A DNA stretch of 42,750 bases from an uncultured Eudoraea sp. (lineage in GTDB: Bacteria; Bacteroidota; Bacteroidia; Flavobacteriales; Flavobacteriaceae): positions 36,626 through 79,375 of the forward strand of contig NZ_CAMYOM010000020.1 of assembly GCF_947260015.1 (NCBI RefSeq). Direction: 5' to 3'. Position numbers and translations under genes: made by a program. Below, piece by piece: positions 13,067 to 17,388 of the stretch. The notes beneath the pieces were generated by a model. That model made no database searches. It worked only from the letters and a program-made list of their open reading frames with translations, and had not been told where the DNA came from. Position 1 is the stretch's first letter. The number at the start of each line of letters is the position of its first letter.

Positions 13067-13092
13067 GATTAGCTATTTATGTAGATAAACTA

Positions 13093-13452
13093 TTAGTTTT
13101 TGTCTGCTAAACGAGTTGTATTTTTTATTCCGTTAATACTGGCAATTTGATTTTTACTGTATTCCACTTCTTTCATGGTATTATTGGACCAAAAAAGCCA
13201 CTTGCCGGACTTATCGCCATTTTCATAACTACCCTGAGACATTTTATTCCCTAAAGCATCATAACTAATCCACTCACCATGCAATTCGCCTTTTAAATTA
13301 AAAGTCCCTTCCTGGCTTATTATACCATTATCATGATAGTCTGTAACTTCTATTAGGTTAGTTTCATCATTAAATTTCTGCACTTTCTTATCCTGTCCAT
13401 AGACCAATACTGTAACAAAGGCCATCACCATAAATAAAACTGCTTTCTTCAT
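13093..13452 (-). CDS. Exported MORN-like (YwqK-type) repeat protein
   Basis: A 119-residue secreted protein, with signal MKKAVLFMVMAFVTVLVYGQ. It is followed by MORN/YwqK-like repeats: LIEVTDYHDNGIISQEGTF, GELHGEWISYDALGNKMSQGSY and GDKSGKWLFWSNNTMKEVEY. I choose the start at 13452 because it gives a clean signal peptide. An in-frame ATG at 13485 overlaps a -7-like box (TATCTTTA on the minus strand), so it should lie upstream of the transcript start. Such proteins are common in Flavobacteria, often labelled YwqK antitoxin-like without functional evidence. No partner toxin is visible here. Confidence 0.75.
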   Translation of the reverse strand: MKKAVLFMVMAFVTVLVYGQDKKVQKFNDETNLIEVTDYHDNGIISQEGTFNLKGELHGEWISYDALGNKMSQGSYENGDKSGKWLFWSNNTMKEVEYSKNQIASINGIKNTTRLADKN

Positions 13453-13500
13453 TTTTACATTTTTTTTGTAATTCTTAATTAGCATAAAGATAAATATTTT

Positions 13501-13539
13501 TAACCTTAAATCAACTTTTGCATAACGTTAATTTTACAT
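13501..13539. promoter_or_regulatory. Further 11-bp-phased TAAC repeats, strand uncertain
   Basis: TAACCT at 13501, CAACTT 13512, TAACGT 13523 and TTACAT 13534 share the 11-bp period of the island's other boxes. They lie between the minus-strand MORN-like gene and the candidate plus-strand small RNA, so either or both could be controlled. TAACGTTA is nearly self-complementary, which blurs orientation. No -7 box sits at the 12-nt spacing seen elsewhere, so the call is weaker. Confidence 0.45.
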
Positions 13540-13574
13540 TAAAAACGTTAATTATTGATTTATAGTATTTTACG

Positions 13575-13758
13575 CCGTGTCCTCTATGGAGGATATTAAT
13601 GATAATTTAATCTTCACGTTACATATACATCATAACTTTTTTTGAGATTTGCTTTAGTGTTTAAACACTATAATTAGCAATTTCATATTGAATATTAGTT
13701 TTTGTCGACTATCATTTATGAATTGTAATGACTGCCTTTGGCCAAGGCAGTTTTTTTG
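13575..13758 (+). ncRNA. Candidate small RNA antisense to the porin leader
   Basis: This 350-nt gap between genes has no plausible ORF but ends in a strong intrinsic terminator. Within it are a small hairpin (TCCTC / GAGGA, 13580-13593), a 16-bp perfect palindrome (13655-13670) and, at 13686-13707, a segment complementary to the porin leader. Bases 13693-13707 pair perfectly with 13817-13831, and after a 2x2 internal loop 13686-13690 pair with 13834-13838, covering the AUG. The start is not determined: phased repeats at 13501-13539 point to about 13575, while a TTTG at 13641-13644 could give a start near 13650. This is an inference from sequence alone. Confidence 0.5.
13731..13758 (+). terminator. 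Strong intrinsic terminator with no ORF upstream
   Basis: A perfect 8-bp stem (ACTGCCTT / AAGGCAGT, loop TGGCC) is followed by an uninterrupted T tract. The nearest plus-strand gene upstream ends more than 700 nt away, behind another gene on the opposite strand. This terminator therefore most likely ends a non-coding transcript starting in 13500-13660. Confidence 0.9.
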
Positions 13759-13768
13759 TTTTATAACT

Positions 13769-13812
13769 TAATATTGCGTTAACGTTATGTTAACAACTAT
13801 TTTGGTTATTTG
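13769..13812 (+). promoter_or_regulatory. Pho-box-like promoter of the porin/PiT operon
   Basis: Three hexamers lie 11 bp apart: TAATAT 13769, TAACGT 13780, TAACAA 13791. The -7-like box GTTATTTG follows at 13805-13812, with exactly 12 nt between the last hexamer and TTTG, as at the two other island promoters. The predicted transcript start, about 13816-13818, gives a leader of only about 20 nt that begins with the CGACAAAAACTAATA segment complementary to the upstream candidate RNA. Confidence 0.7.
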
Positions 13813-13835
13813 TACCCGACAAAAACTAATACGCA

Positions 13836-15041
13836 ATGAGATCAAAATTACTTTCCCTTACATTTATTGTATTCCTATTTTTTACAGCTGTTTCACAAGA
13901 AGTTAAAGCACCCATCTTTGGTAAGGGTATATTGAATTTTGTCGGTAAGGATAGCACCTGGAGTATGAAATTTGGCGCACGTATGCAATTTCTAGGATCA
14001 GCTGATTGGGAAAAAGGACCGGAAGGTGGTTGGATAAATCCTGCATCTAATATGTTGATTCGAAGAGCACGATTAAAATTTGATGGTTTTGCTTTTTCTC
14101 CAAAGTTGAAATATAAAATTGAATTGGGCTTGTCTAACAGGGATATGGCCGGACAATCAGAGTTTACCAGAAATGCGCCGCGAATGATATTGGATGCCGT
14201 AATAAAATGGAATTTTGCTGGAAATTTTGTATTGTGGGCAGGACAGACAAAATTACCTGGCAATATTGAGCGGGTCATCTCATCAGGAAATTTGCAATTG
14301 GTTGATCGATCATTATTGAATGCCGCCTATAATATAGATCGCGATATCGGCTTACAATTAAGACATCATTTTAATCTTTCAGATAAATTCCTGGTAAGAG
14401 AGAAGTTTGCATTTTCACAAGGCGAGGGCAGAAACGTGGTTCTTGGAAACCTGGGAGGCCATCAATATACCGGGCGATTGGAATTATTACCTTTTGGGAA
14501 ATTTAAAAATAAAGGTGATTACTCCGGCAGTGATCTCGAAAGGGAAGAAAAGCCCAAATTAATGCTGTCAGCCACTTATGATATTAATTCCAATGCGGTA
14601 AGAACCCGAAGTAACCTGGGTAATTTTATGTACAATGATGTAGATCTTTATGAAACAACTATAAATACACTTTTTATAGATGCCATGTTCAAATACAGAG
14701 GTTTTTCCTTTATGGGGGAATATGCAAATAGGACTGCTAAAGACCCAATAGCTAAAAATTCTGATGGCACCGAGACAGGAGATGTTGTTAATGTAGGCAA
14801 TGGCTTAAACCTTGCAACTGGATATGTATTTAAGAGTAATTGGGCATTGGCCTTTAGGTTTTCTGATATAAACCCCGATCTGGAAATTACGGGTAACAAC
14901 AAATCAGATCAATATACCTTTGGTGTTTCTAAATTTATTGTAGGCCATAAATTAAAAGTACAAACGGATATCAGTTTTTTAGATGTTCTGGGTGAAACAG
15001 ACGTTTTACTATACAGATTGCAAGTGGATCTGCATTTTTAG
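13836..15041 (+). CDS. OprO/OprP-type phosphate-selective porin
   Basis: A 401-residue outer-membrane porin with signal peptide MRSKLLSLTFIVFLFFTAVSQ. The body matches the Porin_O_P family: WSMKFGARMQFLG, NMLIRRARLKFDGFAFSPKLKYKIELGLS and a C-terminal strand ending in LQVDLHF. Family members in Pseudomonas form anion- or phosphate-selective channels induced by phosphate starvation. Here the PiT transporter lies 76 nt downstream with no terminator between, which supports a phosphate role in one operon. The leader is very short and fully covered by a potential antisense pairing from the region upstream. Confidence 0.9.
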   Translation: MRSKLLSLTFIVFLFFTAVSQEVKAPIFGKGILNFVGKDSTWSMKFGARMQFLGSADWEKGPEGGWINPASNMLIRRARLKFDGFAFSPKLKYKIELGLSNRDMAGQSEFTRNAPRMILDAVIKWNFAGNFVLWAGQTKLPGNIERVISSGNLQLVDRSLLNAAYNIDRDIGLQLRHHFNLSDKFLVREKFAFSQGEGRNVVLGNLGGHQYTGRLELLPFGKFKNKGDYSGSDLEREEKPKLMLSATYDINSNAVRTRSNLGNFMYNDVDLYETTINTLFIDAMFKYRGFSFMGEYANRTAKDPIAKNSDGTETGDVVNVGNGLNLATGYVFKSNWALAFRFSDINPDLEITGNNKSDQYTFGVSKFIVGHKLKVQTDISFLDVLGETDVLLYRLQVDLHF

Positions 15042-15074: not shown

Positions 15075-15125
15075 ATGCATACTTTAGATATTTACGAATT
15101 AATCCTTCAAGAAAATTATGGATAA
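15075..15125 (+). CDS. Possible 16-codon leader ORF overlapping the PiT start
   Basis: A short frame (MHTLDIYELILQENYG) starts 43 nt before the PiT ATG and stops 5 nt after it, overlapping the start region in another frame. Such an arrangement could couple translation of PiT to passage of ribosomes through the leader ORF. There is no other evidence that it is translated, and chance is possible. Confidence 0.25.
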   Translation: MHTLDIYELILQENYG

Positions 15126-17388
15126 TATTTACTTAATAATGATCATTGCTCTGGCCGCTTTGGCAGTTGCGGATTTAGTAGTTGGGGTAAGCAATGATGC
15201 GGTAAATTTTTTAAATTCCGCAATCGGGTCTAAGGCAATATCATTCAGGACAATAATGATTGTGGCAAGTTTGGGCATTGCCTGTGGGGCAATATTTTCA
15301 AGTGGGATGATGGAAGTAGCAAGAAAGGGAATATTTAATCCTGGAGAGTTCTACTTCAATGAGATTATGTTCATTTTTATGGCCGTAATGATAACCGATA
15401 TCCTGTTATTGGATTTCTTTAATACCCTGGGGATGCCTACCTCAACTACGGTTTCTATTGTATTTGAATTGTTAGGTGCTGCGGTAGCCATGTCGCTAAT
15501 AAAAATCGCTGCAGACGGCGGAAGTTTTTCTGAAATCGTAAATTACATTAATACGTCTAAAGCCTTTCAGATAATTATGGGGATATTACTGTCTGTGGTG
15601 GTAGCTTTTTCCATAGGAGCTATTGTTCAATGGATTTCCCGAATTTTATTATCATTTGATTTTGAAAAAAAATCCAAGTGGGTAGGCGCAATTTTTGGTG
15701 GTGTAGCATTATCCGCAATCACTTATTTTATATTCATGAAAGGCATTAAAGGAACACCTTATGCCGGTGAGAGTTATGATTTAATTGGAGGCGTAAAAAT
15801 TAGTGCCTTCCTGGAAGATCAGGTGTTACCTATTATTCTGTTGAGTTTTGTATTCTGGTCTTTATTTTCATATATATTGATAAATCTTACCAAAACCAAT
15901 ATTTATAAATTAATTATTGGTGTTGGGACATTCGCATTGGCACTGGCCTTTGCAGGTAATGATCTTGTTAACTTTATAGGCGTGCCAATTGCAGCATATC
16001 AGTCTTATGAAGCATGGACAGTTTCAGGAGTAGCAGCTACAGAATTTAGTATGGAAGTATTAGCCTCAAAAGTTCCTACACCTACAGTATTACTGTTCAT
16101 TTCAGGATTGATAATGGTAGTTACATTATGGTTTTCAAAAAAAGCGCGCTATGTGGCGGATACGGAGATTAATCTGGCAAGAGAGGGAGAAGCAAAAGAA
16201 CGGTTTAGGCCAAATAACTTATCGAGAGGTTTAGTCAGGTTTTCCATTTTGGCATCCAAATATACCGAAACCGTATTACCAAATTCCCTGCTTGAAAGAA
16301 TTAACAGGCAATTTAAAAAACGTACTCTTGCCCTTTCAAAAGGAAAAGTACATGAATATGCGGCTTTTGATATGGTTAGAGCTGCTGTAAATCTTACGGT
16401 GGCCGGTATACTGATCTCAATTGCAACCTCTTATAAATTGCCTTTATCAACAACCTATGTCACGTTTATGGTAGCCATGGGAACTTCACTTGCAGATCGT
16501 GCATGGGGAAGCGAGAGTGCAGTGTATAGAGTGGCAGGTGTATTAAATGTGATTGGAGGTTGGTTTGCAACAGCAATTATTGCGTTTATAGCTGCAGGTA
16601 CAATTCTAGCGATTATAAGTTTCGGTAAAGGTGCAGCTATTGCAGTATTACTGTTTGTTGCCATATTATTGCTGGCAAGAAATTACATTTCCTATAAAAG
16701 AAAAGCCACGGCAATACGCGTCGAGGATATGTTGATAAGATCGGAAAGTAGTTCCGTACTGGGTGTAATAGAAGAAAGTGTTCATAATATTTCTAAGGTG
16801 CTTAAAAGGAGTAGTAAGCTCTATAGAAATAGTATAGATGGTTTGGCGAGGCAAAACCTGGATACACTTAAAAAGAATAAGAATAATGTTGTTAAATTAT
16901 CGGATGAAATAGATGATCTACGAGACAATTTATTTTACTTTATTAAAAATCTTGATGATAGTAGTATTGAGGCAAGTAATTTTTATATAAATATTTTGGG
17001 CTATTTAACAGATATTGTACAATCTCTTGAATACATTACAAAAATCACCCATAAGCACGTAAACAATAACCACAAAAAATTAAAGTACAATCAGGTTAAA
17101 GAACTCAGCGAAATAAATCAAGAACTGGAATCGCTTCTTACCCGTTCCAAAAAGGCATTTGATAATCGTTCTTTTGAAGAAATAGGAGAGATAATACAAC
17201 AGAAGGAAGAATTATATAAACTTGTTTCTCTTAAAGTTGAAAAACAAGTTCAGAGAACCCGTTCGGAAGAATCCAGTCCAAAAAACACGACCTTATATTT
17301 TTCTCTTCTGTTAGAAACTAAGGATTTGATGACGGCGACTATTAATCTGCTCGAATTATATTATGACATGCACGATCGCAGTATTTAG
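15118..17388 (+). CDS. PiT-family inorganic phosphate transporter with PhoU-like C-terminal domain
   Basis: A 756-residue inner-membrane permease that imports inorganic phosphate driven by an ion gradient. The two PiT signature repeats are clear: VGVSNDAVNF (residues 22-31) and FAGNDLVNF (about 278-286). About 12 membrane segments occupy residues 5-525. The last 200 residues are soluble and helical (SSSVLGVIEESVHNISKVLKRSSKLYRN and following), resembling a PhoU-like domain as in other Bacteroidota PiT proteins. No separate pst or phoU genes are in the window. It lies in the porin operon, so both steps of phosphate entry are co-ordered. Confidence 0.94.
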   Translation: MDNIYLIMIIALAALAVADLVVGVSNDAVNFLNSAIGSKAISFRTIMIVASLGIACGAIFSSGMMEVARKGIFNPGEFYFNEIMFIFMAVMITDILLLDFFNTLGMPTSTTVSIVFELLGAAVAMSLIKIAADGGSFSEIVNYINTSKAFQIIMGILLSVVVAFSIGAIVQWISRILLSFDFEKKSKWVGAIFGGVALSAITYFIFMKGIKGTPYAGESYDLIGGVKISAFLEDQVLPIILLSFVFWSLFSYILINLTKTNIYKLIIGVGTFALALAFAGNDLVNFIGVPIAAYQSYEAWTVSGVAATEFSMEVLASKVPTPTVLLFISGLIMVVTLWFSKKARYVADTEINLAREGEAKERFRPNNLSRGLVRFSILASKYTETVLPNSLLERINRQFKKRTLALSKGKVHEYAAFDMVRAAVNLTVAGILISIATSYKLPLSTTYVTFMVAMGTSLADRAWGSESAVYRVAGVLNVIGGWFATAIIAFIAAGTILAIISFGKGAAIAVLLFVAILLLARNYISYKRKATAIRVEDMLIRSESSSVLGVIEESVHNISKVLKRSSKLYRNSIDGLARQNLDTLKKNKNNVVKLSDEIDDLRDNLFYFIKNLDDSSIEASNFYINILGYLTDIVQSLEYITKITHKHVNNNHKKLKYNQVKELSEINQELESLLTRSKKAFDNRSFEEIGEIIQQKEELYKLVSLKVEKQVQRTRSEESSPKNTTLYFSLLLETKDLMTATINLLELYYDMHDRSI

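Follow-up and report, generated by a model that had tools for sequence, protein, structure and literature searches.

Sequence comparison indicates that a segment upstream of an outer-membrane porin gene is probably the gene of a new, conserved small RNA (sRNA) family, whose seed would pair with the 5' end of the porin mRNA, blocking of translation initiation being the likeliest consequence. The segment lies in a 42,750-nt stretch of DNA from an uncultured Eudoraea sp., here called the window, which belongs to a 3.42-Mb assembly of the family Flavobacteriaceae. In the mechanism that we propose, transcription of the sRNA would begin at about 13656, and its fold would comprise a 5' hairpin, a stem-loop displaying UUAGUUUUUGUCG as the seed and, up to its 3' end near 13758, a terminator. 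Through this seed, the sRNA would bind the very first nucleotides (+1 to about +14) of the transcript encoding a phosphate-type outer-membrane porin, and the duplex, lying over nearly the whole leader, would block initiation of porin translation and perhaps also shorten the lifetime of the mRNA. PhoB would switch on porin and sRNA alike, the sRNA acting as a brake on the porin. The features of the region, in window coordinates, are the following.

13093-13485, minus strand: divergent gene of a MORN_2-like small protein (Pfam MORN_2, 29.2 bits, just below the cut-off of 29.6)
13522-13542, no strand assigned: PHO-box-like 11-bp repeats on the side of the divergent gene (pattern matches, G000:C20:50147-50167)
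13596-13624, plus strand: PHO-box-like half sites in 11-bp phase before the sRNA promoter (consensus TTAATaaTTa.tTAAtaTT....TtAcAtt, 125 units)
13648-13651, plus strand: -7 box of the sRNA, TTTG, ahead of the 5' hairpin (predicted sRNA start at 13656)
13655-13670, plus strand: 5' hairpin (fold)
13656-13758, plus strand: predicted small RNA of ~103 nt (covariance model, 120.2 bits at G000:C20:50280-50395, a sequence itself included in the model; fold z -3.8)
13677-13726, plus strand: second stem-loop, holding the seed (fold; covariation of the enclosing arms)
13693-13707, plus strand: seed (direct reading)
13696-13711, plus strand: inner hairpin UAGUU-UUUGUC-GACUA (fold)
13730-13758, plus strand: intrinsic terminator and T tract (terminator search and fold)
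13768-13797, plus strand: PHO-box-like repeats of the porin promoter, TTAATATT/TTAACGTT/TTAACAAC, in 11-bp phase (two overlapping pattern matches)
13809-13812, plus strand: -7 box of the porin gene, TTTG (predicted +1 at 13817)
13817-13831, plus strand: sRNA target site, corresponding by prediction to nt 1-15 of the porin mRNA (direct reading and comparison)
13836-15041, plus strand: gene of a 401-aa protein of the phosphate-selective porin O/P family, Porin_O_P (Pfam PF07396, E 5e-9)
15118-17388, plus strand: gene of a PHO4/Pit-type phosphate transporter, 3' of the porin gene (Pfam PF01384, E 2.6e-29)

A gene for a Na/Pi cotransporter lies further downstream of the PHO4-type transporter gene. 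The porin of the window is 94% identical to porins of two Eudoraea metagenome-assembled genomes, and a related porin was found in 35 of the 60 genomes searched, the window's own counted. The assembly holds a second copy of the sRNA block (L005, G000:C45:1-11650; 84% identical DNA), which precedes a second porin gene (91% identical protein); this copy may be a paralogue or may sit on a contig from a close relative within the assembly (contamination 1.47%). The divergent MORN_2-like protein travels with the sRNA gene in many relatives: tblastn over 19 loci, the window's own included, detected a homolog in 14 of the 18 others, among them the C45 locus and two Lutibacter loci from which the porin has moved away.

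For the sRNA as a discrete transcript, a promoter consensus, hairpins and a terminator are predicted from sequence; the predicted terminator hairpin at 13730-13752, the T tract and the predicted promoter signals support the initial annotation's proposal that a separate non-coding RNA, ending in a terminator of its own, is encoded here. Folded alone, the RNA at 13655-13758 reached -26.0 kcal/mol (z -3.8), and none of 200 shuffles was as good. Copies were collected with a covariance model built from 22 porin-linked copies of the block, and the 186 units were reduced to 170 distinct cores and further to 154 distinct seed-plus-leader units. All 170 cores contain TTTT[T/A]GTC, and all show a predicted downstream hairpin of at least 5 bp, which is no independent proof, as the terminator is part of the search model. 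Pairs around the seed were predicted in 132 of the cores and a 5' hairpin of at least 3 bp in 101. The arms enclosing the seed covary, with a run score of 6.52 for native arms versus 6.15 +/- 0.08 (maximum 6.29) for swapped arms over 151 usable distinct units, and of 6.90 versus 6.15 +/- 0.15 (maximum 6.40) in the 59 units lacking the common arm. RNAalifold returned only 9 pairs on the first alignment, in which MAFFT had misplaced the hairpins. Many units retain a GACTA directly 3' of the paired seed; the counterpart of this GACTA would lie beyond the mRNA start, so that pairing with the leader is not possible there, and we read it as the stem of the predicted inner hairpin UAGUU...GACUA. On comparative sequence evidence, the RNA gene and its structure can be regarded as shown.

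Model matches were obtained in 106 of 299 sampled family genomes, representing 89 of 236 genera (Flavobacteriaceae, Eudoraea-like), with a single match per genome in 103 of the 106. The model can miss divergent copies, such as that of G153 adjoining a porin gene (L278). An order-wide sample gave matches in 9 of 296 genomes; only L370 came from outside the family, and it is almost identical to L222. Within this sample no match was found in the large genus g146 (presumably Flavobacterium, which is a guess). No description of the sRNA was found in the open-licence literature searched.

At the locus itself, direct reading gave Watson-Crick pairs at all 15 positions between 13693-13707 (TATTAGTTTTTGTCG) and 13817-13831 (CGACAAAAACTAATA), exactly the perfect complement that the initial annotation had reported. 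Its second segment was likewise recovered: across a 2x2 loop, 13686-13690 (TATTG) and 13834-13838 (CAATG) form four Watson-Crick pairs plus a G-U pair. Between 13486-13800 and the leader at 13807-13845, perfect complementarity extends over 15 nt at most, and 3000 dinucleotide-preserving shuffles of the upstream part did not exceed 13; a chance match was rejected on this comparison, in agreement with the earlier view that a 15-bp match in such a position is improbable by chance. The duplex of RNA and leader has a computed energy of -26.8 kcal/mol, compared with a mean of -14.2 (sd 2.2, minimum -23.8) for 2000 control leaders shuffled over their first 19 nt. A count of duplexes extending to the ATG was set aside, because the duplex program lengthens helices irrespective of internal structure. 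One part of the proposal, the helix masking the AUG, did not hold as a general feature. In 129 of 144 units, a helix of at least 5 pairs overlaps the AUG, versus 124 +/- 2.9 (maximum 130) with flanks swapped between species, where the 144 units, as in the leader-length and duplex counts, still include L212 with its spurious site. Since the swapped controls reach similar counts, the AUG-covering second helix was rejected as a conserved trait.

The target site appears to coincide with the start of the porin mRNA. Flavobacterial -7 boxes (TAnnTTTG) are placed at -12 to -5 in a study on this group (PMC9723704). Of 146 units, 141 have TTTG in the 12 nt that precede the target site, and the spacing from TTTG to GAC was 4 or 5 nt in 140 of these 141 porin promoters; together with the -7 box rule, this predicts that the 5' end of the porin mRNA is the first paired base or an adjacent one, as previously supposed. 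The separate porin promoter that had been postulated is likewise supported, by the gene's own -7 box and promoter repeats. For the sRNA, the promoter consensus derives from 125 units with TTTG in the expected stretch before it, and both transcription start sites are deduced from such promoter signals. The predicted leader has a median length of 20 nt (range 14-41, n=144). Translation in Bacteroidota makes no use of Shine-Dalgarno sequences and is modulated by the structure of the mRNA and by the bases of its leader (PMC6847099). Considering the short leader and this mode of initiation, the duplex would cover nearly the whole ribosome landing site and should block initiation.

Pairing that starts at the predicted +1 could also shield the 5' end from decay, and the sRNA and porin genes seem to share regulatory repeats, so that both RNAs would be made together; this would fit an sRNA that stabilizes or activates the porin mRNA with no repression involved. 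We consider this quite unlikely, given a leader of ~20 nt with the duplex inside the ribosome site, and given that the FopS sRNAs of Bacteroides, which bind the start region, repress (PMC11697453). Translational repression is the probable outcome, the sign of the effect being one that we infer.

The leader site was found downstream of the sRNA in 149 of the 154 distinct units. In 144 it is ungapped, in four it carries an extra A (L161, L164, L199, L217) and in one it precedes a GTG start (L207). These figures follow from 146 calls made by script, from which reading removed L212 as spurious and moved L199 to the extra-A group. Among the five units without the site, four lack an adjacent porin (L187, L188, L237, L212) and one ends at a contig edge (L216).

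Over the 146 script-called rows, 68 pair at 14 of 14 positions and 131 at 13 or more, G-U pairs included. The initial annotation had suggested looking for co-varying changes in the two segments among relatives, and compensatory pairs were indeed found in several lineages. In the core, TTTTTGTC/GACAAAAA is replaced by TTTTAGTC/GACTAAAA (L222, L370). In the flank, the pairs are TTGG/CCAA (L108), AATGG/TCATT with one G-U (L078), TAAAG/CTTTA (L023), TTAAG/CTTAA (L232, L241) and TTCG/TGAA with one G-U (L285 with L140). With true partners, 1977 of 2044 cells are paired, versus 1940 +/- 3.9 (maximum 1957) in 2000 random deals of partners, a permutation that is uncorrected for relatedness and still includes the L212 and L199 rows. 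A weaker excess was obtained when the test was restricted to the 27 rows with a seed other than the commonest one (328 of 351 cells versus 319.1 +/- 3.1 at random, maximum 330). Pairing is poorer in some variable units, such as L230, L245 and L025, suggesting that the outer positions tolerate mismatch, and L228 pairs well only with a one-base bulge. From the comparisons, selection on the pairing is evident, and it appears almost certain that the sRNA base-pairs with the porin leader.

Two further arrangements were observed among the units. At L125/L278 (G153:C107), the match of RNA and leader forms a perfect inverted repeat of ~34 bp extending back into the -7 region of the porin, an arrangement suggestive of one arm having been copied onto the other. 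At L165 (G172), a second RNA-plus-leader unit is followed by an apparent porin gene cut off after the signal peptide.

The fate of the leader where the sRNA is absent is informative. Of 80 named porin loci, two (L097 and L135) were set aside because of contig ends. Among the remaining 78, a script recount gave 65 with RNA and site in place; three, all from Lutibacter, have the RNA 3.4-3.5 kb upstream, seven have neither RNA nor site, and three have only a leader site (L102; L111, in which it is degenerate; L136, near a contig end with just 782 nt available before the start). In no locus does the RNA accompany a porin lacking the site (Fisher p 4.5e-8). Thus, loss of complementarity with porin and terminator kept, named at the outset as the observation that would speak against the proposal, was not seen in the 78 loci. 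The porin tree places the seven loci with neither as seven separate changes, at least six of them forced by supported branches; L123, filed with these seven, retains GACAAAA in its leader. The same covariance model at E up to 1, a setting that recovered all three Lutibacter copies, detected no sRNA elsewhere in the seven genomes, and no sRNA was found in the searched genomes of L102, whose leader site is intact, and L111. Of two sister rows, L118 has RNA and site and L119 neither, which suggests that the leader decays once the sRNA is gone. Joint loss and this sister pair together make it seem that the leader sequence is kept for the sRNA and not for itself.

In the three Lutibacter genomes, the seed is upstream of the porin gene on the same strand, at distances of 3427, 3472 and 3456 nt from the porin start; the sRNA locus and the porin locus overlap in all three, and the contigs were joined on this basis. 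Most of the match between seed and leader persists at this distance, with one mismatch in the Lutibacter flavus pair (L286 with L124) and a compensatory change in one of the three. In Lutibacter oceani, the genes between sRNA and porin run in the opposite direction, which excludes one common transcript for the two; by our own reading, these intervening genes include one resembling sulfate transporters and one resembling carbonic anhydrases. An sRNA that retains its match from 3.4-3.5 kb away can act in trans and not as a cis hairpin. The description of the RNA as cis-encoded but non-overlapping therefore holds in part: in the window it is on the same strand as the porin gene and does not overlap it, but the cis linkage is inessential.

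These arrangements also bear on two readings that dispense with a separate sRNA. If one readthrough transcript spanned both arms, they might form a leader hairpin or attenuator, and the strand at 13640-13860 does fold with the arms paired (-54.9 kcal/mol, z -5.7). The porin gene, however, has its own promoter repeats and -7 box, and such a cis element is refuted for Lutibacter by the distance at which the match is kept and, in Lutibacter oceani, by the opposite strand of the intervening genes; it was rejected on the Lutibacter arrangement and is very unlikely overall. Alternatively, the arms, which in the window form an inverted repeat with ~110 bp between them, might act as DNA, as a pair of operators or as the ends of a small mobile element. 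Only two copies exist in the genome, each before a porin, on which account a MITE or operator was rejected; moreover, compensatory changes accompany the divergence of the arms, the two arms disappear together, the right arm is fixed relative to the -7 box and the left one lies in a structured, terminator-ended unit, so that we regard a DNA-level role as extremely unlikely. The gene of a small regulatory RNA remains our preferred reading.

In some units, the leader precedes outer-membrane genes that differ strongly from the window porin. At L171 and L201, the leader precedes distant Porin_O_P members without similarity to the window porin at 1e-3; at L222 and L233, it precedes frames without a Pfam match, and at L238 the site is before a short frame, a weakly barrel-like gene starting further on. 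The regulatory module thus seems to outlive its gene. Separately, L187 (G152), L188 (G138), L237 (G023) and L212 (G153) keep the sRNA with an intact seed and no porin following; at the first three of these, the next gene found encodes a PHO4/Pit-type transporter. Such porin-less copies hint at other targets or at recent loss of the porin.

This raises the possibility that the main job of the sRNA lies at other mRNAs, the porin leader being one target among several or a decoy soaking up the sRNA. Apart from the four intact sRNAs without an adjacent porin, sporadic near-matches before other starts, e.g., L316 and L321, could be cited for it. However, a pattern search, which reaches near-exact sites and misses shorter pairing, revealed no second site of 13-14 nt that recurred among the genomes searched, and in the L119 row, sister to L118, the porin leader site has gone together with the sRNA. 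Inspection of 20 stretches and 20 loci of near-matches revealed mostly sites with no start close by, and the two before a start did not recur among those inspected. We consider this alternative unlikely. A further candidate target in the 3'-terminal stretch of the MORN gene (13092-13104, minus strand) was rejected as coincidence, since it follows from the coding sequence (...DKN*); the match also occurs in G000 C45, G004 and G005 and is absent where the protein ends in DNH* (L067, L011, L069). In the genome whose sRNA at L237 has no adjacent porin, an exact 14-nt target (L315, G023:C1:2851217-2851230, minus strand) lies in AT-rich sequence with no open frame near.

Half sites resembling TTAAYATT, in 11-bp phase, precede the -7 boxes of both sRNA and porin, and by phase and context we take these repeats to be PHO-box-like. 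A genome-wide scan with the PHO-box pattern showed no enrichment (36 matches versus 34 in the reversed control); one match precedes a response-regulator gene for which PhoB, scoring below its cut-off, is the best NCBIfam model. One study (PMC8115612) describes no induction on phosphate depletion for the pf07396 OprP gene in the phoBR operon of F. johnsoniae, which may not be the ortholog of the window porin. Joint control of sRNA and porin by PhoB is plausible from the likeness of the motifs, and a role of the sRNA as a PhoB-coupled brake on the porin is about as likely as not. More tentatively, and with the balance slightly against it, we suggest a family-wide sRNA dedicated to one mRNA, whose transcription start would itself serve for recognition: the sRNA would capture the first ~14 nt of a leader lacking a Shine-Dalgarno sequence, both genes answering to a shared phosphate regulator in an incoherent feed-forward brake on an outer-membrane phosphate pore.

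To our knowledge, conserved sRNAs with assigned targets are scarce in Bacteroidota outside Bacteroides. The family described here provides a natural experiment: it spans dozens of genera and includes compensatory pairs, scattered cases of joint loss and a genus in which sRNA and target are separated. It offers a system for asking how an sRNA controls translation with no Shine-Dalgarno sequence to hide, and bears on how marine flavobacteria meter an outer-membrane phosphate pore. If true, capture of the 5' end would be a general way of silencing mRNAs in a phylum without Shine-Dalgarno pairing.

Among known systems, the enterobacterial MicF and MicC are likewise small RNAs pairing with porin mRNA leaders; the window sRNA differs in having no Shine-Dalgarno sequence to mask and in being linked to its target gene. 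The window gave no Rfam match at gathering thresholds, and the best sub-threshold model for 13500-13900 was MicF (RF00033), with 20.8 bits (E 1.1) versus a gathering threshold of 79. Cis-antisense RNAs overlap their targets on the opposite strand, whereas the sRNA and the porin gene share a strand and do not overlap. The layout is like that of IstR/tisB and OhsC/shoB, type I antitoxin RNAs that adjoin their targets with no overlap and have long complementarity to the leaders. Unlike in those systems, the target is a 401-aa Porin_O_P protein and not a small toxic peptide. Pairing under selection, as in trans-acting sRNAs, is evidenced by the compensatory changes, more weakly in the control with non-consensus seeds. 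Rfp18 of Flavobacterium psychrophilum, compared here by description, is likewise a conserved flavobacterial sRNA thought to pair with mRNAs; its predicted targets are metalloproteases and an adhesin, and its loss lowers two target mRNAs (PMC9723704).

The initial annotation's remark on the small number of antisense RNAs known in the phylum is out of date, as Bacteroides sRNAs repressing the translation of outer-membrane transporters have been published (PMC11697453). In that work, FopS blocks translation of SusC-like transporters by pairing near the start codon, and FopS/GibS of Bacteroides thetaiotaomicron is the closest working analogue: it also belongs to Bacteroidota, pairs at a transporter start and ends in an intrinsic terminator, the translation block being deduced in our case. 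Pairing at the start of a transporter mRNA is shared, as predicted in 149 of 154 units. FopS is described there as having 14 paralogues, a single-stranded 5' seed and several PUL targets (PMC11697453). The window sRNA, with one match in 103 of 106 genomes and its seed in a stem-loop, is neither multicopy nor provided with a single-stranded 5' seed. It is accordingly set apart from the FopS/GibS family by the description of FopS: usually present in one copy, it bears its seed in a loop after a 5' hairpin, has an adjacent phosphate porin as its target and is predicted to pair at +1.
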